64,000 bases of DNA from contig NC_134031.1 in the NCBI RefSeq assembly GCF_964204645.1, forward strand, positions 16,613,307-16,677,306. Direction: 5' to 3'. The position numbers were made by a program, and so were the translations under genes. Below, in pieces: positions 8,847-35,819 of the stretch. Every line of letters begins with the position of its first letter. Within the stretch, counting starts at the first letter, position 1. This DNA is from Tubulanus polymorphus. Taxonomy: Eukaryota > Nemertea > Palaeonemertea > Tubulaniformes > Tubulanidae. The notes beneath the pieces were generated by a model. It made no database searches. It worked only from the letters and a program-made list of their open reading frames with translations, and was not told the origin of the DNA.

Positions 8847-11800
8847 TCAATACGACGGATTTCGACGTATATCGATAATACGCTGAACGCCGCTGGCGAC
8901 CGCATCTTTGATATCGTCGTAAACTTCGACAGCTTCCTTGTTCGCCAATTCCATCAGATACATGCGACCTCGGTTATAATCCTTAACAGCTTGACTAGAT
9001 AACTGAAAATCAATGATAAGTTACAAATTATTCAGTCACAGGTAGTAATTCAGAATGCGCAGGAATCATTATGCACAAAATATGACAAGTGTACATAATG
9101 AAATACGAATGTTACAAGGTATTTGCCCTCAAAACTATGCAACAATAACTTGCCAAGTTCCCTTTACAAAACCATTCCTCCAGAATGGTTTTTAGTTGAG
9201 AACAGAACATTCAGTTTTCCTGATCTATTTTTCTATGCTTTAGATCTTTCAGTTTTTTCATTATTGGTTTAGACACTGGATATTATGGTAAAACAATAAT
9301 CATCACATTCGAACATCTTTTTTTTATTCAACACTTACTTCTTCTCCTTCGATTGTAGCATGTTCTTTGACATTCTCAATGCACAGAACAACATCGCAGC
9401 CCAGACCGATATAATAACCAGCCTTCAACACAAACGAATAAAACTGATTAGAATTAGACAAGCGACAAGTGTGTTATCTGGAAGGCATCAGCTTTCGACA
9501 TTGAACTAGGGAATTGTCCCTCTAGTCTATTTTGATTGATTTGATGTAATCATTTGGGGCGGCCCTAAAACCCACCACAACTGCTGGGAATGAAACAAGG
9601 CCTCGTTTTAAACAGGGGGAGATCGAGGTTAACTGTAGAGGGTAGCACTACGCTCAACTAATAAGGGCATAATCTATGACAAACCCCAAAAATTGTTTAA
9701 AATTTATTGCTTTTTGCGCAATTTCCAAGCGAGGCCAAGGGCGCGAAACTTAAACGACAGTAGCACATGCCTCTGAGGCTACCGTTAGAATCCGGGCCTG
9801 TTAACCATACCTCTAACATAGCAGCAGTAGCACGCGTGTCACCAGTTATAATGAACAATAACAAGTAGCAGTTCTCTTTGATGTTCGCCTCGATAGGAAT
9901 GTATCGTTCACTCCAATAAGGTGTCTGCGGGTTGAAATACGATATTCCGTGTTTCCTACAAAGATTCATAGTTACCGCATTAGCATCGTACTTACTGACA
10001 AAGCCTTAACCCTTTCAGTGCATATACACCGCAGTGCAGTGTATGAATCGGTGATGGATTTTGCCAATACACTGCACTGCGGTGTATTGGTATAATTAGT
10101 AATTAGTTTTAATCTCTATTGAAAGATGGCGGCAGCACCTGTCAAACATAGTGAAATATTAGTTACTAACGATACCTGCACCACGGTGTAGACGCACTGT
10201 AGTGGTATTCCCGTTATTCAACACACTAGGGCGAAATTTTTCAAAATTTTCAAATTATCTCCAGCACTATAGGGTATTGATTAGTTAGCACTGAAAGGGT
10301 TAATAAATTACCGAGGTGGCCACTCTAATTTGACTTGCTTTTTCCCTGACATGTTATTTTCCAGTCAAATACGTAAGACGTAGACAGAAACTGTTTGATC
10401 TTACGCGTGATCTTGCAATCTCAACCAATTTCTCTGACTTGACCAAAATTTCTAACTTCGTTTGTTAAAAAATTCCCCGACTATCCCCTGACTTTTTTAT
10501 AAAGAAGAGAAAATTCGCCGACTTTTCCCCTGATTTCCAGGTAAATGGCCACCCTGTATTACTTGTTTCTATTCGCGCTCACCGTAAAAGAGGTATAGCG
10601 ATTTCAGTTCTCCAGTTTGTGTCGCCACAACTTCCGCCGAGGAATATATCGCGACTACTAAATACATTATCGGCTGGTTCTTCATTCCTGCTTCGTTCTG
10701 TCAAAACACATTATCATACAACATTACATCTTAATCACACTCAGTTGATGGAATTAGTCAAACCCGCTTAATTTGAATTGGTTTACCGGTACTCCATTTA
10801 TAGTCCATTTATACATGCATGTGTTAAGTTTGATTGATGGTTAATCTGGGGCTGGTTGCACAGCCATGACTTAAGTCTAAAAGTGGTCTTAAATCTTAAA
10901 GCCGGGCGTAGGTCGACCTTGGGCGTAGGTTGCGTCACAAGTGGGGGCGTAAGTCGGTTGCGACACGATTGTCAGCGACTGTGTGCGACTAGTTGCTCGC
11001 AGCCGCAAGAGCGCGTAGATCGGTTGCGACGGTCGCGTCGCATCGTAGAAAGTAGAACATGTGCGACTCATTGCGACTGGCGTCGCTGCCAGTCGCAACC
11101 CGTCGCTGGCAGTCGCAAGGTAGCGTAGGTTGGTTGGTCGTTGCGACGCGATCGTCGCTGGCGGTCGCAGTGAGTCGCGTCGCAGTGAGTCGCAAGCCGT
11201 CGCAAGGCCGACCTACGCCCGGCTTAAGATTGGTCTTAAGTTGTTAGATTGGCTACAGAACTAAGTTGGTCTTTGACTGATCTTAAGTCCAAGGCTATGA
11301 TGACTATGCAACTGACCCCTGGATTTTTCATTAATCGTACTATAAATTTCATCGGTCCGGTCATCCGAACTAAACGGGCTCTATTGTATTGCTTAAACAT
11401 AAGAATCGACTTACTGCAAGGATGGAAGATGGAATGTAAAAACGATTTAAACTGCTGAATGGGACTTTGTGGCTATAAAAGAAAAACACGTCACACTGTA
11501 TTCGCAATATTTCATTAAACAGGGGCAGATCCACTGTATTCTAGAATTTCGTCAGAAAAATGTGAATTACATATCTCCTAGAAGTACCTTATCTAAGAGG
11601 TCCAGAATGCCTTTAAATACAAGGAAAAAAAGTCATTTTTCAAACTTTTAATGAGTTTGTGTCTCAATGAGCTCTGTCGCTGGCATATCATTGAGCAATA
11701 ATTTTTAAGATTATATTCAAATATAGGCTGGATATCCACCCCTGAATAAGTTGTTAGAGTTTAGCTGTGAGGATTCTTGTGGTGTTCGTCCCAAGCGGTA

Positions 11801-14800
11801 CTCAGAGGAGTTGGACACAAAACTGACGTCAACATACCCCATATTTATACTCGGTGACGAGACAGCAGAATTCACTGAGCGAGAACTGGGCGTCGTGGGA
11901 ATGCTTCGACGATGGCAAAGACGTCCGATGTAGTTCCGAATTGGTCAACATCTTAAATGCTAAGGACGCCTACAAGAAAGGAGAATGTGAGTATTTGAGT
12001 TTGAGAGACAGCTGTTCAATCAGTATTAAACCCTGTACCGCAGATACTTACATCATCAAGACCAATGCTTCCTTTATGACCAACATCAACTGCATTGAAT
12101 GCTTCTTTGATTTTACTGAAATGAATACCAGTATTGTATCTTAATGCAGAATTGTTTTTTTTTAAATGTTACTTTCAAACATTCACTTACATGTATTTGT
12201 CGGCTACTCTGATATGTGTAAATTTGACGGGTTGCGCCCCGTCTGCTAATGTCAAATCAGGTACTGATTTACCCTGTGAATAGAGCACAATTTTCTGATG
12301 AAAAATTTTTATGTGAATCTTACAGAAATTCTATGTCAATGCTTTTTATTGCGATTCAATGAATTCTAACAAATAAATTGTATAGCCACGTTCACACTAT
12401 CTCTAGGTAGTCCTTTGTCATTCAGCCCATACATGGAATGCACCAATTTAGAATCGGACCAAATCAATGCACATTTTCATATCAGTTAGACACAGCACTG
12501 TGATTAACAGGCAATTGAAGTGATGCTTCTATTCACAAACAGAAAAATAATCTGTTTTAAAATTTTGAGCAGACCTGGATCAGTTTCATCAGTTGGTCTA
12601 AATTAGTTCGTTTAAAATCGAGTGGTCCAGTCTAGAAGAAACTTCCTGCTAGAGTGAATTCTTGGTCTAAATTGGAATGGACTAAATTCGCAACGTTCTC
12701 AATAATGAAGTGTGAATGTGGCTTATGAAAATGACAGTTTATCGCGCTAAAAAATACCTCATGAATAACTGTAGAAGTGCATTGTAACGCTACTTGAATG
12801 TCATCGAATACGGGTAACCGGCGACGTTCGACTAGGTCCTGTATGAACGCTTGAGCTCGCGTCAGTGATGAATACTCTCTATCAAAACAATCATAACATA
12901 ACTGATTGAGCAACAACATCTGCCAACCACAAGATTAATCGTAGTTCATGTTCGGCTATCATTGCCACGACGTGTTATCTCTCATAGCTAATCCTTCTTA
13001 CAGGTTGCAGCCACTTTCCACCCATTTACAAATCCCCTGGGACCGGTTGCATAGTCATGGGACTTAATACCAGTATAAGACCAACTTAGTTCTATAGCCA
13101 ATCTAACAACTTAAGACCAGTCTTAAGATTTAAGACCACTGTGGGACTTAAGTTTCGACTATGGAACTAGGCCCTGAGTTTTCCCTGATTTCTCCATGTG
13201 TTTACACAAAATTCCCCACGAAGATCAGAGAAATTTTTAAAATGTTACAATTCATTCATTTTTCATTGAATCGCATATGGATAAGGAAACACATGACCAA
13301 TAGCATAATTCCCAGAGTTTTCAAGGCATAATTTGTCGAACTCCCCGATTTTTCTAGATTTTTTTCTGATTCCCTGGGTTTCGCAGGCCAGTGGCCATCC
13401 TGTGTTTGACATTTGCCCTGATATTGACAACTGGAATGACACATGTGAACAAACTCTGCGTCATTCTCAACATCGAACTTACGTGTCTGATATGACTTCA
13501 CCCATGATTTCCACGCTCGGATCAGGCAACGGTTTTATCACCAGTATCAACTGACTTCCCGATCCTGCGAAACAATCACATTTTACTTTCATCGTCTATC
13601 ATTACGCAACGCTTTAGATGGAAACGACGATAAGTCATACGAACCTGCTAAGTACGCGGCCTCGACTAATGACGCAATACATCTAGTGAAGTGATGAATT
13701 ACGAAAAAGTGAACTTGCGCAATCTGTAACGAATTCAACAACAAATTAGACACAATTATAAGCCACGATCACACGGAGACGATTCGGCCCTGGATCAGGC
13801 CTGAGGCAAATTTAGCCTGTTTCCAATTAGGAGAGTGCGTTCATACACTTAAACCACTCACTCGACATTAAACAATGCTTAAACAAAGCGAAGTGAGTCA
13901 CTTCGACGAACAGTTGCACCCGAGCTAAAATTTGGCTCAGGCCTGGGCCGATGTTTTTGGTGCAGCCAATTAGGCCTGGACCCATTTGGCACCCATGTGA
14001 GCAGTTGTTTGTGGTCAAATACTCGTGTGACCACGGCTATAATGACAATCAACGGGTCCCAAATTCAGATACCGCGCACATACACTTTTAGCTTGTTCTT
14101 CTATTTCTATCAGTTCCGGGCGCCATTTCGCAACTTGCTGTAAAAATAAATAAGCATAAAATTTCTCTATACCCTTTCAAAGTTCAGATTTCTTAAGAAA
14201 ATTGCTTAATTCATGATACGTACCGGGTTGTAGAATGTAATATTGTGTTTTTTCAGATAAGGTATAGCTGTATCGGCCCGCCACGTTGTAGGATTACAAG
14301 CACCACCCAGAAACACTGCACAAAAATACAATCAGTCCAATTTATGATAAGTTTAAATTGCCACGTAACATCCTTCGATATTCAGTTAACTCGCATGCCC
14401 TGGACAATATGTTACAAATTGTTCTACTTCGATTGATCGCGATATTGACTCCGCGTCGACTACCTGATATTTGCATATCTCTCTAGAGAGAATCTAATCT
14501 CTCTACTATAGCAGTATTTCAGAACGTAACATTTCCAATTATCGTTAAGATCGATTAGAATTACAACTGAAATTTCACGGTATTTCAACATTCACGCTAC
14601 ACATTACCTTGGAAATTATTCACCAGCCCTGAAAACAGAAACATCATTTGAAATTATTACAAGAGACATTTGATCTTGGCATTATTATGGCATATCCAAT
14701 GAGCGACACTACTGCAACAAGAGAAATTCCACCAGAATCAGCCAGCTTATTTTGGCAGTTCAACATTGAGAGGACATTGGTGACATCTGATACCTTGGTG

Positions 14801-15404
14801 GTGCCATCTTACGGCATAGCTGGTATACCGATAAACCCATTAACCCGTGTCCCCTTACCTTCAACTTTACGTTTATGACGTTTTGACTTGGTGCGTTTTC
14901 TTGACAGCGGCACCAGACTGGGAACGCTGGACAAGATTTAAAAAAAAAAAAAAACATTATTAGTTAATAGAGACAATTGCTGAATATCTAACAATGATGA
15001 TCTATCAATTGAATGAAGATCTAACAAACTATTTTCCGGTCCATCAAAGTCTGTCAAATCAATTTGTGAAATTTGGTCATCATATACCTTTTCTTATATC
15101 CATCTTCTAAAGCCGCACACAAAACACAGAATTTTGAAAACGGCAAAACAGCATTTTCAGGTTGGTCGCCGTATGTGTGCAACGCTTCATAAACTTCATA
15201 CGAAAATACAGAAAAACCGAAATTACTGATATTTCTAAAAAGTTTGCAAGTTTTTAAATAGATTCATTTCAAGAGACGATATAACGTTGCTTACTTTGAG
15301 ATTTAGTCGGATAAAGATGGTACTCGTTCAAGGCTCGTCTCACATCATCGGTGGTCAGATAAGATTTTTTCTTCGAATATTTTTCAAAATGGTTGTAATA
15401 CTTC
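8847..15404 (-). CDS. Tandem nucleoside 2-deoxyribosyltransferase-like protein with EF-hand-like exons (5' end missing)
   Basis: Exons in order (minus): 15404-15295, 15234-15088, 14926-14859, 14628-14608, 14315-14224, 14137-14084, 13723-13645, 13564-13483, 12878-12758, 11969-11838, 10697-10583, 9955-9811, 9422-9339 and 9002-8847 (stop). About 470 residues are recovered. The first two exons look EF-hand-like, and the third encodes a basic linker (SRKRTKSKRHKRK). Domain 1 starts at VFLGGACNPTTWR and carries RCIASLVEAAYLAG. Domain 2 starts at IFLGGSCGDTNWR and carries ATAAMLEAGYYIGLG. Both retain the Glu that acts as nucleophile in this superfamily, and both end in the family's R(A/G)xxxxxLxxxxxVxVxxDI pattern. 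The exon at 11969 encodes another EF-hand-like segment between the domains. Known members cleave or transfer N-glycosidic bonds of deoxynucleosides, and the animal proteins are largely uncharacterised. Two junctions are unresolved: 15295/15234, and 11838/10697, where a small exon is probably missing. No start codon was found upstream of 15404. Confidence 0.82.
10006..10303. mobile_element. piggyBac-like MITE, copy 1 (TTAA target site)
   Basis: Terminal inverted repeats CCCTTTCAGTGC (10010 onward) and GCACTGAAAGGG (ending 10299) are each flanked by TTAA (10006-10009 and 10300-10303). The 290-base element has no open frame and carries internal CACCGCAGTGCAGTGTAT palindromes. TTAA duplication with a CCC start is typical of piggyBac-type transposons. 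It lies in an intron of the deoxyribosyltransferase-like gene. Confidence 0.8.
10314..10556. repeat. GTGGCCAC-type foldback repeat, copy 1
   Basis: GGTGGCCACTCTAATTTGAC at the left is mirrored by AAATGGCCACCCTG at the right, with several degenerate internal copies of TCCCTGACTT. Related copies are at 13172-13403 and 56561-56779. It is intronic. Confidence 0.5.
10846..11321. repeat. GGTTGCAyAGTCATGG foldback MITE with a nested second palindrome
   Basis: The outer arms start CTGGGGCTGGTTGCACAG and end CTATGCAACTGACCCCTGG, with TTAAGTC/GACTTAA motifs inside. Between them, 10899-11226 forms a second palindrome bounded by AGCCGGGCGTAGGTCG and its inverse, filled with many GTCGCA/TGCGAC words. Sister elements without the insert are at 13036-13176, 55441-55576 and 61781-61899. 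Confidence 0.65.
11520..11744. repeat. GGATCC-type foldback MITE, copy 3
   Basis: CAGGGGCAGATCCACTG at the left and GGCTGGATATCCACCCCTG at the right are diverged inverted ends matching the copies at 3489 and 5666. It lies between exons of the deoxyribosyltransferase-like gene. Confidence 0.5.
13036..13176. repeat. GGTTGCATAGTCATGG foldback MITE
   Basis: CCTGGGACCGGTTGCATAG at the left pairs with CTATGGAACTAGGCCCTG at the right, around inverted GACTTAA/TTAAGTC and ACCAGTCTTAAG motifs. It is about 140 bases long and intronic. Confidence 0.6.
13172..13403. repeat. GTGGCCAC-type repeat, copy 2
   Basis: It begins with TTTTCCCTGATTTCTCC next to the previous element and ends with CAGTGGCCATCCTGTG. 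It resembles the copies at 10314 and 56561. Open frames inside it (13256-13554) are repeat-derived. Confidence 0.45.
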
Positions 15405-16649: not shown

Positions 16650-16680
16650 TTATAAAACGCGCCATACGATTGGGGCACAT
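16556..16680 (-). pseudogene. Receptor gene fragments: a C-terminal piece joined to a TM4 piece
   Basis: 16556-16632 resembles the TM7/C-terminal coding DNA of the array's receptors (compare 16740-16770 and 23940-24000). It is followed directly at 16646-16680 by sequence matching the TM4 coding segment found at 17160-17195. The order is not that of an intact gene, so this is a scrambled relic. The stop codon of the neighbouring receptor lies inside the TM4-like piece. Confidence 0.7.
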
Positions 16681-17639
16681 ATGTCACAGCATTGATCCCT
16701 AACCACTGAACGAATATCGCGTCCTAACATCACGTATATGTAGAAATTGATGCAATTATTTGCGGTGAAAAATACGCCGCTGACCTCGTCGGCCATATTG
16801 AATGAGAATGTTTCTAATAGATGTGGTAAAAACACTCGGATGAAAGTCATCACCGTAATTGGTGAATAGCAGATGACAAAACAAATAGATGTTCCCAACA
16901 ACATGACAGTAGCTCTTATTGTTGATGCTTGTTTTCCACTACCCTGACCAAAGTCTTTCTGTTGGAAAAGCAAAATCACCGTCGTGCAGTTCAGTATAAC
17001 TACTAAAGACATTGGACAAATAATAAATATACTTCGACTATAGATATAAGCACGAGGGGCTGCTTCAGAAGTTATCACACACCCAATGCCAGGTACAAAT
17101 ACACCATTTGGTATATTAGGCCACATTTGACTGCAAAGACCGAGTAGACACATGATTAAAGTTATAAACCGCGCCGTACGAGGGGTGCACATTAGTCGAC
17201 CTTTCATCGGGAATAAAACGACCACGAAACGTTCGAAAGACACTAAAACGATCAACCATGATGAAACGAGATGAAAATAATCGCCGAGAATTTCGACGGT
17301 CAAACAAGCGGCTAACGACTGATCCAAACGTATTAGCACTGAAACATTGCCGAAAACATGAACGTAGAATAAATTGATTAACATGAATAAACGTAGCGTC
17401 ATACAAGCATTGTCCGAAACAGAGAGAACTATTAGATATGTGCTGTATGAATGCTTTCTTAAGTCGGGGGAAATCATTACCAGAAATGCTAAACAGTTAC
17501 CGACAATTCCAAATATGCAGAGAAATCCATAAGAAAAGATGTAAACGATAGCTCTTCGATAACTGATGCCGTAGATTTCAATCATTCCAGTGAAGTAATC
17601 TTTAGTCCATTCAGCTGGTAAGGTAGAATTTGCTGACAT
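16650..17639 (-). CDS. Intronless class A GPCR, array copy 1
   Basis: 329 residues with seven hydrophobic segments. Class A marks are GN in TM1 (FGIVGNCLAF), LSVSD in TM2, ERF in place of DRY after TM3, CYSP in TM6 and NNCINFYIY in TM7 in place of NPxxY. The N-terminus has an N-glycosylation site (NST). Divergent peptide-type receptors (FMRFamide-receptor-like) look closest, but the ligand is unknown and a chemosensory role is equally possible. The last dozen or so codons (from DICAPIVWRVL) do not match the sister genes. They come from a misplaced TM4-like fragment. The 5' flank (17640-17825) closely matches that of copy 6. Confidence 0.9.
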   Translation of the reverse strand: MSANSTLPAEWTKDYFTGMIEIYGISYRRAIVYIFSYGFLCIFGIVGNCLAFLVMISPDLRKHSYSTYLIVLSVSDNACMTLRLFMLINLFYVHVFGNVSVLIRLDQSLAACLTVEILGDYFHLVSSWLIVLVSFERFVVVLFPMKGRLMCTPRTARFITLIMCLLGLCSQMWPNIPNGVFVPGIGCVITSEAAPRAYIYSRSIFIICPMSLVVILNCTTVILLFQQKDFGQGSGKQASTIRATVMLLGTSICFVICYSPITVMTFIRVFLPHLLETFSFNMADEVSGVFFTANNCINFYIYVMLGRDIRSVVRDQCCDICAPIVWRVL

Positions 17640-21882: not shown

Positions 21883-22893
21883 TTATAATTTCTGACATCC
21901 TTTCAAGCAGATTTTCTGAATCACCGAACGGATGTCGCGTCCTAGGAAAACGTAGATGTAGAAATTAATGCAGTTGTTAGTCGTGAAGAATACGCCGCCG
22001 ACCTCCTGGGCCATATTGAAAGAAAACGTCACTAACAAATGCGGTAGAAGTATGCGTACGAATGTCGTCAATATAAGAGGCGAATAGCAGATGACAAAAC
22101 AAATAGATGTTCCCAACAACATGACGGTAGCTTTCATCGTTGATGCTTGTTTTCCACTACCCTGACCAAAGTCTTTCTGTTGGAAAAGAGAAAGTACTGT
22201 CGTGCAGTTCAGTATTACTACTAAAAACATTGGAACAATTCCTATTATAGTTCGTCCATAGATATATGTGATTAGAGCTGCTTCAGATGTAACCACGCAT
22301 CCAACGCCGGGTACAAATACGCCATATGGTATATTCGGCCACATTTGACTGCAAAATCCGAGTAGACACATGATTAAAGTTATAAACCGCGCCGTACAAG
22401 GGGTGCACAATAGTCGACCTTTCATCGGGAATAAAACGACCACAAAACGTTCGAACGACACTAAAACGATCAACCACGATGAAACGAGATGAAAATAATC
22501 GCCGAGAATTTCGACGGTCAAACAAGCGGCTAACGACTGATCGAAACGTATTAGCACCGAAACATTGCCGAAAACATGAACGTAGAATAAATTGATTAAC
22601 GTGAATAAACGTAGCGTCATACAAGCATTGTCCGAAACAGAGAGAACTATTAGATATGTGCTGTATGAATGCTTTCTTAAGTCTGGGGAAATCATTACCA
22701 GAAATGCTGAACAGTTACCGACAATTCCAAATATGCAGAGAAATCCATAAATGAAGATATAAACGATAGCTCTTCGGTAACTGATGCCGGAGATTTTGAC
22801 TAATGCTGTGAAGGCATCTATTGTCCATCCTTCGTTGAGCGTATCATTGATAGGGGTGGTGTCCATATCCGTTTCACATTCCATCAAGTTCAA
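21883..22893 (-). CDS. Intronless class A GPCR, array copy 2
   Basis: 336 residues. It shares the array's near-constant TM1-TM4 block (for example DLRKHSYSTYLIVLSVSDNA and SWLIVLVSFERFVVVLFPMK) and the ERF, CYSP and NNCINFYIY motifs. It differs in the N-terminus (MNLMECETDMDTTPIN) and in the loop before TM5 (SEAALITYIYGRTIIGIVPM). It ends RSVIQKICLKGCQKL. One N-glycosylation site (NDT) lies near the start. Its 5' flank resembles neither promoter type seen at the other copies. A plasma-membrane receptor is expected and the ligand is unknown. Confidence 0.9.
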   Translation of the reverse strand: MNLMECETDMDTTPINDTLNEGWTIDAFTALVKISGISYRRAIVYIFIYGFLCIFGIVGNCSAFLVMISPDLRKHSYSTYLIVLSVSDNACMTLRLFTLINLFYVHVFGNVSVLIRFDQSLAACLTVEILGDYFHLVSSWLIVLVSFERFVVVLFPMKGRLLCTPCTARFITLIMCLLGFCSQMWPNIPYGVFVPGVGCVVTSEAALITYIYGRTIIGIVPMFLVVILNCTTVLSLFQQKDFGQGSGKQASTMKATVMLLGTSICFVICYSPLILTTFVRILLPHLLVTFSFNMAQEVGGVFFTTNNCINFYIYVFLGRDIRSVIQKICLKGCQKL

Positions 22894-23887: not shown

Positions 23888-24879
23888 TTATTTCTTTGTG
23901 AAAATTGTTCCTCCTATTCTGAAGCATTGATTCCTAACCACTGAACGGATGTCGCGTCCTAACATCACGTATATGTAGAAATTAATGCAATTATTTGCTG
24001 TAAAAAATACACCCCCGACCTCGTCGGCCATATTGAATGAGAATGTTGTTAATAAGTGTGGTAAAAATACTCGGACGAAAGTCATGACTGTAATTGGTGA
24101 ATAGCAGATGACAAAATAGATGTTCCCAACAACATGACAGTAGCTCTTATTGTTGATGCTTGTTTTCCACTACCCTGACCAAAGTCTTTCTGTTGGAAAA
24201 GAGTAAATACTGTCGTGCAGTTCAGTATTACTACTAAAAACATTGGACAAATAATTAGCAAACTTCTAGCATAGATATATGTGATTAAAGCTGCTTCAGA
24301 TGTAACCACGCATCCAACGCCAGGTACAAATACACCATTTGGGATATTCGGCCACATTTGACTGCAAAATCCGAGTAGACACATGATTGAAGTTATAAAC
24401 TGCGCCGTATGAGGGGTGCACATTAGTCGACCTTTCATTGGGAATAAAACGACCACAAAACGTTCGAACGACAGTAAAACGATCAACCACGATGAAACGA
24501 GATGAAAATAATCGCCGAGAATTTCGACGGTCAAACAAGCGGCTAACGACTGATCGAAACGTATAAGTACCGAAACATTGCCGAAAACATGAACGTAGAA
24601 TAAATTGATTAACATGAATAAACGTAGCGTCATACAAGCATTGTCCGAAACAGAGAGAACTATTAGATATGTGCTGTATGAATGCTTTCTTAAGTCTGGG
24701 GAAATCATTACCAGAAATGCTAAACAGTTACCGACAATTCCGAATATGCAGAGAAATCCATAAATGAACGTATAAACGAAAGCTCTTCGATAACTGATGC
24801 TGTAAATTTCAACCATTCCAGTGAAGAAATCTTTCGCCCATCCAACGGGTAATGTGAAATTGATAGGTGTCTGTTCCAT
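23888..24879 (-). pseudogene. Class A GPCR, array copy 3, broken by a 4-base deletion
   Basis: The frame 24879-24082 reads as an intact receptor (start MEQTPINFTLP) through TM5, then shifts to an unrelated tail within TM6. The lost reading resumes in another frame at 24085-23888 (MTFVRVFLPHLL to the end). The sister genes read GATGACAAAACAAATAGATG on plus where this one has GATGACAAAATAGATG (about 24107-24120), so four bases are missing. Everything else remains receptor-like, so the break is recent or an assembly error. If real, the product would lack TM6-TM7. Confidence 0.85.
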
Positions 24880-26486: not shown

Positions 26487-27482
26487 CTATTTCATTATGA
26501 AAATCGCTCGTCCTGTTTTGGAGCATCGAGTCCTAACCACTGCACGGATATCGCGACCTAACATCACATATATGTAGAAATTGATGCAATTATTAGCGGT
26601 GAAAAAAACAGTTTCGACCTCATGGGCTATATTGTATGAGAATGTATTTACTGAATCTGGTAAAAACACTCGGACGAAAGTCATGACTGTAATTGGTGAA
26701 TAGCAGATTACAAAACAAATAGATGTTCCCAACAACATGACTGTAGCTCTTATTGTTGATGCTTGTTTTCCACTACCCTGACCAAAGTCTTTCTGTTGGA
26801 AAAGTGAAATCACTGTCGTGCAGTTCATTATCACTACTAAAAACATTGGACAAACAATAAAAAGAATTCCAGCATAGATGTATGTACTAGGGGCTGCTTC
26901 AGGTGTAACCACACATCCATAGCCAGGTACAAATACACCATTTGGTATATTAGGCCACATTTGACTGCAAAATCCGAGTAGACACATGATTAAAATTATA
27001 AACCACGCCGTACGAGGGGTGCACATTAGTCGACCTTTCATCGGGAATAAAACGACCACAAAACGTTCGAACGACACTAAAACGATCAACCACGATGAAA
27101 CGAGATGAAAATAATCGCCAAGAATTTCGACGGTCAAACAAGTGGCTAACGACTGATCGAAACGTATCAGCACCGAAACATTGCCGAAAACATGAACGTA
27201 GAATAAATTGATTAACATGAATAAACGTAACGTCATACAAGCATTGTCCGAAACAGAGAGAACTATTAGATATGTGCTGTATGAATGCTTTCTTAAGTCT
27301 GGGGAAATCATTACCAGAAATGCTAAACAGTTACCAACAATTCCAAATATGCAAAGAAATCCAAAAATGAAGATATAAACGATAGCTCTTCGATAACTGA
27401 TGCCATCGATTTCAATCATCACATTGAAGAAATCTTTTATCCATCCATCGGGCAACGTGAAATTGATAGGTATCGGTTCCAT
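26487..27482 (-). CDS. Intronless class A GPCR, array copy 4
   Basis: 331 residues from the ATG at 27482 (MEPIPINFTLPDGW). The open frame extends to an earlier ATG at 27533, but the later one aligns with the starts of copies 3 and 5, so I prefer it. The seven-helix layout and the motifs ERF, CYSP and NNCINFYIY are conserved. The loop between TM6 and TM7 differs (DSVNTFSYNIAHEVETVFF), as does the loop before TM5 (PEAAPSTYIYAGILFIV). It is head to head with copy 5, and their 5' flanks are inverted copies. Confidence 0.9.
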   Translation of the reverse strand: MEPIPINFTLPDGWIKDFFNVMIEIDGISYRRAIVYIFIFGFLCIFGIVGNCLAFLVMISPDLRKHSYSTYLIVLSVSDNACMTLRLFMLINLFYVHVFGNVSVLIRFDQSLATCLTVEILGDYFHLVSSWLIVLVSFERFVVVLFPMKGRLMCTPRTAWFIILIMCLLGFCSQMWPNIPNGVFVPGYGCVVTPEAAPSTYIYAGILFIVCPMFLVVIMNCTTVISLFQQKDFGQGSGKQASTIRATVMLLGTSICFVICYSPITVMTFVRVFLPDSVNTFSYNIAHEVETVFFTANNCINFYIYVMLGRDIRAVVRTRCSKTGRAIFIMK

Positions 27483-28255
27483 GATGAAGTTACGGTGATA
27501 GATTTGATGTATAGTCAAAAATGTGATATTCAAAACGTAATTGAATATGTTCGTCGGACGAAATGATTGATTTTAATGATTTCTAATTTCAGTCATCTTT
27601 GTGAATTGTTTGGGAGTTATATCCAGTTACACATCGCACTGCCTGCATCCTTTACTTTTTTGAATGAATGTTTATTAGATCCTGTCATCGGTGAAATTCG
27701 GAAAAATTGTTTTTTTTTTCTTTTTAAGATAAACCTCACTGAACGATAGCAAAATCTGTCACTTGAAAGAGGAGTTGTAGAAAAGCCGCGTTAACGTGGT
27801 GACACATCTGTGAATGTGAAGACTGATGCATAGTACCAAAAATGCATAAATGATACATTGTCTCTTTATGTATTTCTGATGGTACTTAATAGGTTAACCT
27901 GATTTTATCGAGATATGAGGCAAAGCAGCTTCAGTTTGGTACTATCCATCAGTCTTCACATTTACTGATTTGACACCATGGTTAACATAGCTTTTTTACG
28001 ACTCCTCTTTCAAGTTACAGATTTTGGTATCGTTCAGCGAGGTTTATACTTTTCTAAACTACACTTACGACGGGATCTAATATACATTTGATAAGGTAAA
28101 AGAAGGAAGCATGATGTGTAACGGAATCTAACTCCTAACCAATTATCAAAGATGGTTGAAATTTAAAGCCTTAAAATCGATCATTTCATCCACCGAACAT
28201 ATTTAGATTACACATTTTTATACACTACTGCATATCTATCAGTATAACTTCCATC
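27483..28255. promoter_or_regulatory. Palindromic shared promoter region between receptor copies 4 and 5
   Basis: The first and last 100 bases are inverted copies: GAACATATT, ATCATTTCrTCC and CACATTTTT occur at matching distances from both ATGs. Farther in, an outer pair (GTGAAGACTGATG at 27816-27828 and CATCAGTCTTCACA at 27948-27961) is also inverted. Further inverted pairs flank it (GAAAGAGGAGT / ACTCCTCTTTC). The same ATG-proximal block occurs upstream of copy 3 (24890-24985). Confidence 0.6.
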
Positions 28256-29230
28256 ATGGAACCGACACCGATCAATTTCACGTTGCCCGATGGATGGGTA
28301 AAAGATTTCTTCACTGTAATGATTGAAATCGACGGCATCAGTTATGGAAGAGCTTTGGTTTATATCTTCGTCTATGGATTTCTCTGCATCTTCGGAATTG
28401 TCGGTAACTGTTCAGCATTTCTGGTGATGATTTCGCCAGACTTAAGAAAGCATTCATACAGCACATATCTAATAGTTCTCTCTGTTTCGGACAATGCTTG
28501 TATGACGCTACGATTATTCATGTTAATCAATTTATTCTACGTTCATGTTTTCGGCAATGTTTCGGCGCTAATACGTTTCGATCAGTCGTTAGCCGCTTGT
28601 TTGACCGTTGAAATTCTCGGCGATTATTTTCATCTCGTTTCATCGTGGTTGATCGATTTAGTGTCGTTCGAACGTTTTGTGGTCGTTTTATTCCCGATGA
28701 AAGGTCGACTAATGTGTACCCCTCGTACGGCGCGGTTTATAACTTCGATCATGTGTCTACTCGGATTTTGCAGTCAAATGTGGCCGAATATACCAAATGG
28801 TGTATTTGTACCTGGCTATGGATGTGTGGTTACACCTGAAGCAGCCCCTAGTACATACATCTATGCTAGAAGTTGTTCAATTATTTGTCCAATGTTTTTA
28901 GTAGTCGTACTTAACTGCACGACGGTGATTTCGCTTTTCCAACAGAAAGACTTTGGTCAGGGTAGTGGAAAACAAGCATCCACAATAAGAGCTACTGTCA
29001 TGCTGTTGGGAACATCTATTTGTTTTGTAATCTGTTATTCACCAATTACGGTGATGACTTTCGTCCGAGTGTTTTTACCACATTTATTAACGACATTCTC
29101 ATTCAATATGGCCGACGAGGTCGGAGTCGTATTTTTAACCACAAATAATTGTATCAATTTCTATATATACGTGATGTTAGGACGTGATATCCGTTCAGTG
29201 GTTAGGAATCAATGCTCCAAAATTAAATGA
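28256..29230 (+). CDS. Intronless class A GPCR, array copy 5
   Basis: 324 residues, start MEPTPINFTLPDGW. It has the same TM1-TM4 core as its sisters. One striking change places an acidic residue in TM3: SSWLIDLVSFERF, where all other copies have WLIVL. TM7 reads TTNNCINFYIYVML. The C-terminus is short (RNQCSKIK). N-glycosylation is possible at NFT. It is transcribed away from copy 4. It is probably a surface receptor, and the buried Asp could alter ligand or G-protein coupling or reduce function. Confidence 0.9.
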   Translation: MEPTPINFTLPDGWVKDFFTVMIEIDGISYGRALVYIFVYGFLCIFGIVGNCSAFLVMISPDLRKHSYSTYLIVLSVSDNACMTLRLFMLINLFYVHVFGNVSALIRFDQSLAACLTVEILGDYFHLVSSWLIDLVSFERFVVVLFPMKGRLMCTPRTARFITSIMCLLGFCSQMWPNIPNGVFVPGYGCVVTPEAAPSTYIYARSCSIICPMFLVVVLNCTTVISLFQQKDFGQGSGKQASTIRATVMLLGTSICFVICYSPITVMTFVRVFLPHLLTTFSFNMADEVGVVFLTTNNCINFYIYVMLGRDIRSVVRNQCSKIK

Positions 29231-30837: not shown

Positions 30838-31827
30838 ATGTCAGCAAACTCTACCTTACCACCTGGGTGGACGAAAGATTTCTTCACTGGATTGGTTGAA
30901 ATCTACGGCATCAGTTATCGAAGAGCTATCATTTATATCTTCATTTATGGATTTCTCTGTATATTTGGAATTGTCGGTAACTGTTTAGCATTTCTGGTCA
31001 TGATTTCACCAGACTTAAGAAAGCATTCATACAGCACATATCTAATAGTTCTCTCTGTTTCGGACAATGCTTGTATGACGCTACGTTTATTCATGTTAAT
31101 CAATTTATTCTACGTTCATGTTTTCGGCAATGATTCGGTGCTGATACGTTTCGATCAGTCGTTAGCCGCTTGTCTGACCGTCGAAATTCTCGGCGATTAT
31201 TCTCATCTCGTTTCATCGTGGTTGATCGTTTTAGTGTCGTTCGAACGTTTTGTGGTCGTTTTATTCCCGATGAAAGGTCGACTAATGTGCACCCCTCGTA
31301 CGGCGCGGTTTATAACTTCCATCATGTGTCTACTCGGATTTTGCAGTCAAATGTGGCCGAATATCCCAAATGGATTGTTTGTTGAGGGTTATGGGTGCAT
31401 TGTCACATCCAATGATGCGGCCATCACTCACATATATGCCCGGGCCTTTCTTATAATCGTTCCCATGTTTTTGGTTGTATTTCTCAACAGCACAACAGTA
31501 CTTTCTCTTTTCCAACAGAAAGACTTTGGTCAGGGTAGTGGAAAACAAGCATCAACAATAAGAGCTACTGTCATGTTGTTGGGAACATCTATTTGTTTTG
31601 TCATCTGTTATTCACCAATTACGGTGATGACTTTCGTCCGAGTATTTTTACCACATTTATTAACAACATTCTCATTCAATATGGCCGACGAGGTCGGGGG
31701 TGTATTTTTTACAGCAAATAATTGCATCAATTTCTACATATACGTGATGTTGGGTCGCGAAATTAAGTTCATATTAAAATCCCAGTGCTTCCGAATGTGT
31801 CCAATAGAAAATGGTGCGAAAGAATAG
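30838..31827 (+). CDS. Intronless class A GPCR, array copy 6
   Basis: 329 residues, start MSANSTLPPGW, nearly the same as copy 1. It has the core motifs ERF, CYSP and NNCINFYIY. The most divergent part is the second extracellular loop and TM5 (GLFVEGYGCIVTSNDAAITH), and the C-terminus is its own (REIKFILKSQCFRMC...). Its upstream 185 bases closely match the flank of copy 1, at the other end of the array and on the opposite strand. It converges with the ankyrin-SOCS gene. Confidence 0.9.
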   Translation: MSANSTLPPGWTKDFFTGLVEIYGISYRRAIIYIFIYGFLCIFGIVGNCLAFLVMISPDLRKHSYSTYLIVLSVSDNACMTLRLFMLINLFYVHVFGNDSVLIRFDQSLAACLTVEILGDYSHLVSSWLIVLVSFERFVVVLFPMKGRLMCTPRTARFITSIMCLLGFCSQMWPNIPNGLFVEGYGCIVTSNDAAITHIYARAFLIIVPMFLVVFLNSTTVLSLFQQKDFGQGSGKQASTIRATVMLLGTSICFVICYSPITVMTFVRVFLPHLLTTFSFNMADEVGGVFFTANNCINFYIYVMLGREIKFILKSQCFRMCPIENGAKE

Positions 31828-32252: not shown

Positions 32253-34442
32253 TCATTGTTGGTCTATGTTTCTCCATGCGATGAAACGAATAATTTTCGC
32301 CGGCGTATGAATGCGAGATAGCGCATTTACGACGCTAGATCTCCCCGCTACGGCGACCGCGCGACGGAACGAGATGCGACAATGCGAAGACAGCGTTAAC
32401 GGTTGAGACAGCGATTCTCGTATGGATTTCTTGAGCGCCGGCGGTATCGACGGACAGTCGCAAAACACTCGATTCATCAACGTACGACTGGTTTCCCCGA
32501 GTAAATTACACTCTCTTAGACGAGTTATGAATTCTAAAGCGTACGGTTTCTTACATATCGCGCGCACGTACGCGTCTAAACGCCGGTCCTTTTCATGTTC
32601 TAAACGAAGGTATCCGCAGCACTCTTCGACGACGGCGATTTCTAAGCTGTAGTTTTTTATTGTCGCCAGAGTCTCGAGACGTATATCGCCGATGCCTCCC
32701 GTAAGATCGATGATTTCGCGAATTGCCCTGACCATGACGAACGTATTTTGTAAGAACGCCGGCGGACTCGCCAACAACGAACCTAAAGACATTTTCGGTA
32801 TACCGCGTTTAATGTCGTCCGGTGAAAGTTTCGATTTCAGTAGTTGAAGATACGGCGGGTACAAACACGCGTAGACGAACGCGTTGTATTTCGAACTCGG
32901 GTTCGGACGCGCGCCGTGATCGATCAGCGAAGAAATGATCGTCTCCATTCGTTCGTAAAACGTGCCGGCGATTTCGTGGCCGACCTGCGGAGCGTAACTA
33001 CGACAAACCATCAGCAGTATGGATTCGTTTAAACCGGGTAAGATGTAACGAGCGTCTGCTCCGTTCTCGAGCAGAAGCTTCGTAACTGCCGCGTATCCGT
33101 TCCTCGCGGCAACGGCGAGAGGAGTCATCCCGCCTTGAGACGTTTGATCGACATCGGCGCCCGCTTCGACGAAATATCGAACGAGTTGGAGATTTTCGGG
33201 AACGAGCGCGCACGCTATACTTATCGGAGACTGGTCGTGGTGTCCTTTTGAATTGATATCAGCTCCGTGCTCAACCAGGAGCTCGATTATCTCATGCCTT
33301 TGATAGATGCATGCTGTGTGTAGAGCAGTTTGATCCATCCAATCTTTCAGCGAAATGTCCGCATCATTCGCGAGGAGAAATTTCACGATTTCAAAACGAT
33401 CGCGTTTTACAGCGATGTGCAGCGGTGTCCGATTTGTGCTGTCAACGGCGTCGATATCGGCTCCTCGAGACGACAGTAGTCTGACCATATCGATGTAACC
33501 CTTCTGGACTGCCAGATGCAGCGACGTTTTTCCTTGGTCGCTCGCGAAATGATAATCAATCGGCCAGCCGATCTCTAGTAGTTCTTCGGTACACGTTACG
33601 CAATTGTTCTTGATGGCTAGATTAAACAGAGTTTCATCGCGCGCTTCGATCCATTCCGGGTTCAAATTAAGCAGACTGAATTTGTAGACGTATATTATTT
33701 TTAAAATGTCATCGCATATCGGTGTTATCGCGCGCAGCTCCGATGGATTCGGTAGATACGATATCAACAGCTTCACGACGGCCGAGTGTCCCCATCTGCC
33801 GCTCAACAGTAACGCTTTCTGTAACTGATCGGGCAGACGACATTCCGGATATTTGACGAGATACGGCCGAACGATTTCTTCGCGTCCCCACGAGCATTCT
33901 TCGTACCAAATACATAGAACGAGTTCGGACAAACATTTACAACCGTAATGTTCTAGAATCGTCCGATTCGTGGCCAGTTCGTGGTCGAGCAAAGTCTGCA
34001 GTACGCCTTTCGATTCGAATTCGCATTCGAGTTCGCGTATACGGCGAACGGAGAAAGCTTCCTCGCCGTCCTGTACCAGCGTCGTACAGATGACGGATAT
34101 CGCTAACGGAGATCGCATCGACGTCATGTAATCGGTTTCGACCGCGTGTCGTAACAGCACGGCGATCATTACGTAGAAACCGTTCTCGACGACGAATCGT
34201 AGATACTTCGACGACACCGACGATTTCACTTTCATCCTGTCGGCGAAAAGGGCGTCGACGATTTCGGCGACTTCGACTTGCAGACGGCTGGTGCTGTGTA
34301 GTACGTGAGTGAATAGATACGTAACGTCTACGTACGCTCCGATCGATGAGTAAGATTCTCGTAGTTCGACGATCAGACGTTTGTTACCGGTCTCAACGGC
34401 GTGAATGACAGCGCTGTTGATGTACGCTTTAGAAACACCCAT
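32253..34442 (-). CDS. Ankyrin-repeat protein with a C-terminal SOCS box (ASB-like)
   Basis: 729 residues from the ATG at 34442. The open frame runs 15 codons farther, but a strong acceptor (TTTCATTTCTTTCTCAG) ends just three bases before this ATG, so the upstream codons are probably intron and the 5' UTR exon is separate. Residues 1-300 are helical without clear repeats. About 305-470 hold at least five ankyrin repeats (TPLHIAV, ALHTACI, TPLAVAA), with a degenerate one near 500. About 680-725 match a SOCS box (LTLSSHCRISFRRAV, then PAKIIRFI). ASB proteins use the SOCS box to bind Elongin B/C and Cullin 5 and present substrates for ubiquitination. The substrate here is unknown. The gene is GC- and CpG-richer than its surroundings. 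Confidence 0.88.
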   Translation of the reverse strand: MGVSKAYINSAVIHAVETGNKRLIVELRESYSSIGAYVDVTYLFTHVLHSTSRLQVEVAEIVDALFADRMKVKSSVSSKYLRFVVENGFYVMIAVLLRHAVETDYMTSMRSPLAISVICTTLVQDGEEAFSVRRIRELECEFESKGVLQTLLDHELATNRTILEHYGCKCLSELVLCIWYEECSWGREEIVRPYLVKYPECRLPDQLQKALLLSGRWGHSAVVKLLISYLPNPSELRAITPICDDILKIIYVYKFSLLNLNPEWIEARDETLFNLAIKNNCVTCTEELLEIGWPIDYHFASDQGKTSLHLAVQKGYIDMVRLLSSRGADIDAVDSTNRTPLHIAVKRDRFEIVKFLLANDADISLKDWMDQTALHTACIYQRHEIIELLVEHGADINSKGHHDQSPISIACALVPENLQLVRYFVEAGADVDQTSQGGMTPLAVAARNGYAAVTKLLLENGADARYILPGLNESILLMVCRSYAPQVGHEIAGTFYERMETIISSLIDHGARPNPSSKYNAFVYACLYPPYLQLLKSKLSPDDIKRGIPKMSLGSLLASPPAFLQNTFVMVRAIREIIDLTGGIGDIRLETLATIKNYSLEIAVVEECCGYLRLEHEKDRRLDAYVRAICKKPYALEFITRLRECNLLGETSRTLMNRVFCDCPSIPPALKKSIRESLSQPLTLSSHCRISFRRAVAVAGRSSVVNALSRIHTPAKIIRFIAWRNIDQQ

Positions 34443-35819
34443 CGCCTGAGAAAGAAATGAAATAATTTCGTCAATTTTCAATATCATATTATCTGATATA
34501 GATTTGCATTATTGATGACATTTCAGAGATGTCAACTGTTCCTGATTTTCAGTATTTGTTACTATTTCATGATGAGAAATACTGATTCGATTTGATTTGT
34601 TTGATGCATACAGAAATATGAATGATGTTACTGAGGGTTTTACTGTTAATGACTGATTAATTGGGAACATTTTCTTTCATTTTTCAATGTAATGTGACTG
34701 AAAAAAATTCAACTTGTTACTGATACCGCTTTTCAGAGGTTGGCAGCCTGGACATTTGTAAGTGCAATAGATCACAGGGTTGTACATGAATTTTATTGGG
34801 TATCCCGTCTCTGAATATGAGACGGTTTTTCAATCAGGCTGGTTTTTGGGATCATATGACAAGACAAATAATACTTGAAGGTTAAGAAAATTTTTTTTCT
34901 TAGATGATCTGCTCATTTACCTGATGAAGTTACTGTATACTAGTAGGGAAAACTTGTAATTGGAATAGAAGCAGGTTAACCTTCAAAGTACAACCAGTCT
35001 TCACGATTACTCATTCGACACCAGGTAACACAGCCCCTCCATAACTCTTGTCACAAGAGATCTACCAAAATATTATTGATAGTGCCCTAAGATATTGTAT
35101 TGTTATTGGTATATTGAGGCTACTCACTTGAGACAATTCAACACATTTTTAAAAAGTGACTCATTGTTAGGTTAAAAGACTGGTACCAACCCGATTCAGT
35201 CTTGTTTATTTACATTTTCGACGGTGTCATGACGGAATCGTATGTACGACAACAGTTGTCACATGACTGACAAAATGTCCGCCGAACTGGGTTATAGATA
35301 TTCGTATGATTATCACATTCTGTCAGTCATTCTTATCAATGCTTTTCAATTATTCCAACACTATCACAATGTACATATGATCGAGATCTCAAAATTTTGA
35401 CAATCGATTTCGGACACTTTGACCTGAGGTACGGTTTTCAACATAAGTTTTTCTCAACATATATAAACTTGGCTTTTTATCAACCGAATGGTTTGACGAT
35501 TACAAATCGTACTATATTTAGTTGAGATCTTTTGTTGAAGTTTCAATCAGGCATATTTTATGACCCGCGGGTATGATATTATTGTCTTGTAGACCTACTT
35601 GTTGACATGAACAGTCATAATTCTATTCTATTAATGCACGTCTCATACGTGCTGTTTTAATGACTTAACTTGCGTACTTCAATATCACACGAACAATCGG
35701 GTGAAATAGATAGGTCTTAACCGGCATTGGATTTAGTCGTTAGAAGAGAACTGCTGTGAACTGCTGCTGTGAATTTGTCGTTTCTGTAATAGTGAGATAT
35801 ATTTCTCATATAGGTGGAA
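34443..35819. other. Intergenic region between divergent ankyrin-SOCS and p67phox-like genes
   Basis: About 1.4 kb without coding evidence. It should hold the 5' UTR exons and promoters of both genes. An AG acceptor at 35812-35813 implies a 5' UTR intron in the p67phox-like gene as well. A segment near 34990-35050 (CCAGTCTTCACGATTACT...) resembles sequence in the receptor spacers at 25130 and 27950. Confidence 0.5.

Follow-up and report, generated by a model that had tools for sequence, protein, structure and literature searches.

We propose that a gene on the minus strand of the nemertean Tubulanus polymorphus encodes an N-glycosidase-type enzyme with twin PF15891 (Nuc_deoxyri_tr2) domains, structural EF-hand-like modules, and a substrate of the nucleotide-signal class; taken as a whole, we give this reading a probability of about one-half. 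The gene lies between positions 15404 and 8847 of the window (the whole stretch of DNA analyzed, 64,000 nucleotides), where 17 coding exons join into a single 516-codon open frame. Under this proposal, at least one of the two domains would cleave a nucleotide, or a derivative of one, at its N-glycosidic bond. The protein appears to be a real enzyme and possibly an active one, two active heads are possible, and we infer from the sequence that both halves are carried on one transcript. Should it be active, animals would have another N-glycosidase in addition to DNPH1. We found no animal protein of this architecture in the literature on PF15891 or on deoxyribosyltransferase domains combined with EF-hands; the architecture may already be present among annotated animal proteins as an unnamed EF-hand protein.

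Gene structure

The original prediction had placed the gene at 8847-15404, and its coordinates and strand logic were right: The frame runs on the minus strand and ends with a TGA stop at 8849-8847. Reading both strands, we placed the exons by eye from open frames and splice signals on the minus strand. A script check of these exons found all 16 introns to be GT-AG and every junction to be phase-compatible. The splice sites were picked to fit the frame, so that phase agreement alone is no independent proof of the gene model. Exons 5-9 and 14-17, however, each add up to a complete domain that is collinear with bacterial proteins lacking introns, and the model is therefore independently supported. 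The 16 introns, within a large contig (the window lies at C7:16.6 Mb), also rule out bacterial contamination.

From its 5' side, the gene model consists of a first EF-hand-like pair (15088-15404; exons 15404-15295 and 15193-15088, joined by an in-phase GT-AG intron), a basic-linker exon encoding KRTKSKRHKRK (14859-14926), a 21-base microexon encoding GLVNNFQ (14608-14628; GT-AG, phase 1 on both sides), and PF15891 domain 1 (12758-14315; exons 14315-14224, 14137-14084, 13723-13645, 13564-13483, and 12878-12758). A linker exon between the halves (12191-12273), in phase 0 to exon 12878-12758 and in phase 2 to the next exon, leads to the second EF-hand-like pair with its tail (11415-12115; exons 12115-12052, 11969-11838, and 11454-11415) and then to PF15891 domain 2 with the stop codon (8847-10697; exons 10697-10583, 9955-9811, 9422-9339, and 9002-8847). 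At 10900-11220, in the intron that separates exon 11454-11415 from exon 10697-10583, GTCGC/GCGAC words recur and resemble a local repeat.

The first exon found (15404) begins with a G in phase 2. A candidate 5' exon on the same strand would end in the donor TTTAAT/GTATGT, whose AT, at 15674-15673, would give with the G at 15404 a split ATG and a protein start MKYYNHFEKYS... This donor scores 10.5, compared with 5.5-11.5 for the other donors of the gene, and across the window, the minus strand has only three AT/GT sites of comparable strength. The split start codon may complete the protein at 517 amino acids, and residue numbers given here refer to this 517-amino-acid model.

It is conceivable that two neighboring genes, each with one EF-hand-like pair and one PF15891 domain, have been wrongly joined. 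The frame of exon 12878-12758 runs about 40 codons into its intron, which makes an early end possible, and that intron contains one AATAAA, at 12350. Yet donor, acceptor, and phase all fit across 12758/12273, the linker exon has no Met, and the stretch between the halves contains no ATG exon followed by a suitable donor; we consider two separate genes very unlikely. The junction initially proposed between the halves, 12758/11969, skips exons 12273-12191 and 12115-12052.

In a whole-genome search, the protein matched only the gene's own exons; to the extent that an exon-wise search can show, no other copy exists. Before joining, the raw exons gave only one match in the genome, below the cutoff.

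Two PF15891 domains and their relatives

The joined protein matches PF15891 twice, at 65.9 and 69.7 bits (Pfam cutoff, 30), which bears out the two deoxyribosyltransferase-like domains in compatible phase that had been predicted. Both are full members of the family by score and keep its FLGG..C...WR and NP motifs and its Glu; the match of the protein to PF05014, the family of the nucleoside 2'-deoxyribosyltransferases, is below threshold (13.8 versus 28.8 bits). A search against NCBIfam gave no match. The two domains are 34% identical to each other over 135 residues (E 8e-32). For each of them, relatives from a bacterium (L016) and a phage-like contig (L009) give higher scores than its animal counterpart does, and a tree, with long branches, did not show whether the two animal domains are sisters.

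We searched for relatives in prokaryote and virus collections, where full-length ones are rare; the figures given here are lower bounds. A contig scan with the two animal domains as queries gave no relatives, and a rescan led by the phage relative gave four bacteria. Full-length relatives were found only in these four bacterial genomes, namely metagenome-assembled genomes (MAGs) of Parcubacteria (L015), Lentisphaerae (L016), and Uhrbacteria (L017) and an uncultured bacterium (L018), and in the phage-like contig L009. They are collinear with domain 1 and 38-40% identical to it; L009 is 39% identical to both animal domains. The relatives are single-domain proteins of about 150 amino acids that lack EF pairs, whereas the animal gene has many introns and encodes two domains in tandem along with the EF-like pairs. 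L016 and L017 are 87% identical and may not be independent, and the binning of the MAGs may be wrong. Wider sampling of 379 genomes from the phylum group of L015, 288 from that of L016, and 379 from that of L018 (a list that largely overlaps the L015 one) gave no further relatives. Other phage and plasmid matches were set aside as shorter or as members of other PF15891 subgroups; in the tree, a clade of their own is made up by the viral contigs L020-L022 and L026-L033. On an Aureispira plasmid (L011, 1486-3201), a short PF15891 gene immediately precedes two TIR-domain genes, a further link of the PF15891 family to nucleotide signaling or defense.

Predicted fold and active site

An AlphaFold model of the L016 relative, whose sequence is 48-54% identical to other relatives, reached a pLDDT of 84 and a pTM of 0.81. 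Its best structural matches are a putative deoxyribosyltransferase (4mcj, Z 12.7), YtoQ (11.6), human DNPH1 (10.8), and MilB (10.5), with TIR domains ranking close behind. This bacterial relative models as a deoxyribosyltransferase/DNPH1 fold, which we predict for the animal domains as well. MilB is a CMP N-glycosidase. DNPH1/Rcl, MilB, and the nucleoside 2'-deoxyribosyltransferases appear to share with the animal domains both the predicted fold (Z 10-11) and a nucleophile-type Glu, and the TIR/DRHyd/SLOG group of nucleotide-signaling domains belongs to the same fold class. We know of no NADase or cyclase activity in the PF15891 family.

The catalytic residues of DNPH1 are Tyr24, Asp80, and Glu104 (PMC10603095, PMC10483697). 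A profile comparison with DNPH1 alone (hhalign) gave no significant alignment, so that the residue pairing given here is positional; a profile search of the PDB returned no nucleoside 2'-deoxyribosyltransferase structure, and its top rows were kelch designs, which matched through a short NP..W motif. Two Glu columns, which hold Glu146 and Glu172 in domain 1 and Glu412 and Glu438 in domain 2, are invariant in all seven sequences compared, and in the L016 model they sit in the second and third helices, where the topology puts Asp80 and Glu104. By the order of strands and helices, Glu172/Glu438 would take the place of the nucleophile Glu104, and Glu146/Glu412 would by topology replace Asp80. The catalytic-type Glu noted originally in both copies, Glu172 and Glu438, is indeed kept, and cleavage of N-glycosidic bonds, as had been suggested, is plausible given PF15891 membership, the fold modeled on the bacterial relative, and this retained Glu. 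In the proposed mechanism, a glycosyl-enzyme intermediate would form on Glu172/Glu438, and Glu146/Glu412 would act as acid/base. The two domains would pack as an internal pair, standing in for the homodimer that DNPH1 needs.

Compared with DNPH1 and the nucleoside 2'-deoxyribosyltransferases, the animal domains differ by position in having Phe for Tyr and probably Glu for Asp: Phe104/Phe370, where the first strand ends, would occupy the place of Tyr24. In rat DNPH1, the Tyr to Phe change lowers kcat/KM 280-fold (PMC10483697). Moreover, the five bacterial and phage relatives all have an Asp where the preceding strand ends, whereas the animal domains have His161 and Thr427 there; activity may therefore have been changed or lost.

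These changes bear on the main rival to our proposal, namely that the protein is a pseudoenzyme or has a structural role, perhaps in cilia, with fold and glutamates kept and the domains serving as nucleotide-binding or structural modules. It would account for the Phe in place of Tyr and for the conserved Asp lost in both copies, and it would suit the degenerate EF pairs described below. Phe at the Tyr position, however, is the rule in all bacterial and phage relatives compared, and because the bacteria share it, it is no sign of decay of the animal copy. Both glutamates, in addition, have been kept across domains only 34% identical to each other, and in the bacterial relatives. We therefore regard a pseudoenzyme as rather unlikely, if the most serious of the alternatives.

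EF-hand-like pairs

An EF-hand-like module is likely present before each PF15891 domain, and a phase-2 intron lies immediately upstream of each pair. The original prediction had placed EF-hand-like exons before both domains and expected Nuc_deoxyri_tr2 and EF-hand from a Pfam search of the joined exons. The first expectation held; for EF-hand, no match passed the Pfam cutoff. The EF-hand_7 score of pair 2 is 20.2 bits (cutoff 30), and its alignments with centrin and aequorin are weak. Pair 1 has no EF-hand match in Pfam, and the similarity between the two pairs is not significant, with 42 of 500 shuffles scoring equally well. In the PDB, pair 1 matched only Tetrahymena CFAP115 (E 3e-4), in the EF-hand pairs of that protein, which belongs to the doublet microtubules of cilia (PMC10105768); the match would favor a ciliary pseudoenzyme, but it is weak and speaks to fold, not to location. 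Each of the four EF-like loops, YSKKKSYLTTDD, DQPENAVLPFSK, DVGHKGSIGLDD, and KHSHDAQFSLSE, was scored by a simple ligand count against a 12-residue calcium loop with Asp at position 1, Asp, Asn, or Ser at positions 3 and 5, and Glu at position 12. None of the four is canonical: The best, KHSHDAQFSLSE, has three of the four scored ligands and a Lys at loop position 1, and the others score 0.5-2. Because no loop has the full ligand set, the calcium sensing originally attributed to the protein is unsupported, and calcium control by the EF pairs is unlikely. Degenerate EF-hand pairs are common in cilia. In the enzyme that we propose, the EF pairs would be docking or spacing modules, not calcium switches.

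Bacterial LSDAT neighbors and a possible role in nucleotide signaling

In L015 and L016, the gene adjoining the PF15891 gene encodes a protein of 750-970 amino acids on the opposite strand, tail-to-tail with it. The C-terminal part of this neighbor is an LSDAT_prok domain ("SLOG in TRPM, prokaryote"; 37 bits, Pfam cutoff 25.4); the rest of the large protein, taken from L015, has no Pfam match. One LSDAT_prok protein was detected per genome, always as the convergent neighbor of the PF15891 gene, in all four bacterial genomes (minus strand; L015 4585-7497, L016 3469-5721, L017 4673-7681, L018 4631-7525). The two virus records have no LSDAT_prok protein. The sensor region of TRPM channels is likewise made of LSDAT domains. 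Nucleotide binding is a property of SLOG/LSDAT domains, and ADP-ribose is a ligand of the LSDAT region in zebrafish TRPM2 (PMC13143021); DRHyd-class domains have been proposed to make or destroy nucleotide signals (PMC9503650, PMC7159879).

The bacterial pairing is the strongest functional hint that we have. With an LSDAT protein tail-to-tail with the PF15891 gene in four of four bacteria, it suggests nucleotide signaling, or a conflict system, rather than salvage. The fold of the PF15891 domain belongs to the DRHyd class, and to our knowledge no substrate of the family is known. From the bacterial neighborhood, we would expect the product or substrate of the animal protein to be a nucleotide signal of the kind bound by LSDAT/SLOG domains (ADP-ribose-type ligands) and not a salvage intermediate. 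If the enzyme is active, the fixed bacterial pairing would also be a direct and testable clue to what LSDAT domains bind. The role in defense also raised by the original prediction fits the LSDAT/SLOG neighborhood in a general way only, and no PADLOC defense model was matched.

Nothing was found in favor of the nucleotide salvage that had first been suggested. A DNPH1-like enzyme that sanitizes the nucleotide pool or serves salvage, with modified dNMPs as substrates, would agree with the modeled fold match to DNPH1 and MilB. An exon-by-exon search, which can miss exons, detected no DNPH1-type PF05014 exon in this genome, so the gene could substitute for DNPH1. The differing active-site Tyr and Asp speak against such an enzyme, as do the bacterial relatives, which adjoin LSDAT genes and not genes of nucleotide metabolism; we hold it to be distinctly unlikely.

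The proposed N-glycosidase-type enzyme could also be given a more specific partner. LSDAT_euk (TRPM-type) genes number at least four in the T. polymorphus genome, and the twin-domain gene adjoins none of them. Speculatively, the animal enzyme could make or destroy a nucleotide signal that LSDAT/SLOG sensors, for instance those of the four TRPM-type genes, would read; it would then represent, in animals, a bacterial system with two parts, PF15891 enzyme and LSDAT sensor. We think this scenario improbable.

Other features of the window

Beyond the twin-domain gene, the window contains at least six very similar single-exon open frames resembling rhodopsin-like GPCRs, in both orientations, between 16650 and 31827. 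Four are on the minus strand (16650-17639, 21883-22893, the shorter 24082-24879, and 26487-27533) and two on the plus strand (28256-29230 and 30838-31827). They are followed, on the minus strand at 32253-34487, by a single-exon open frame of 744 amino acids that by eye is ankyrin-repeat-like.
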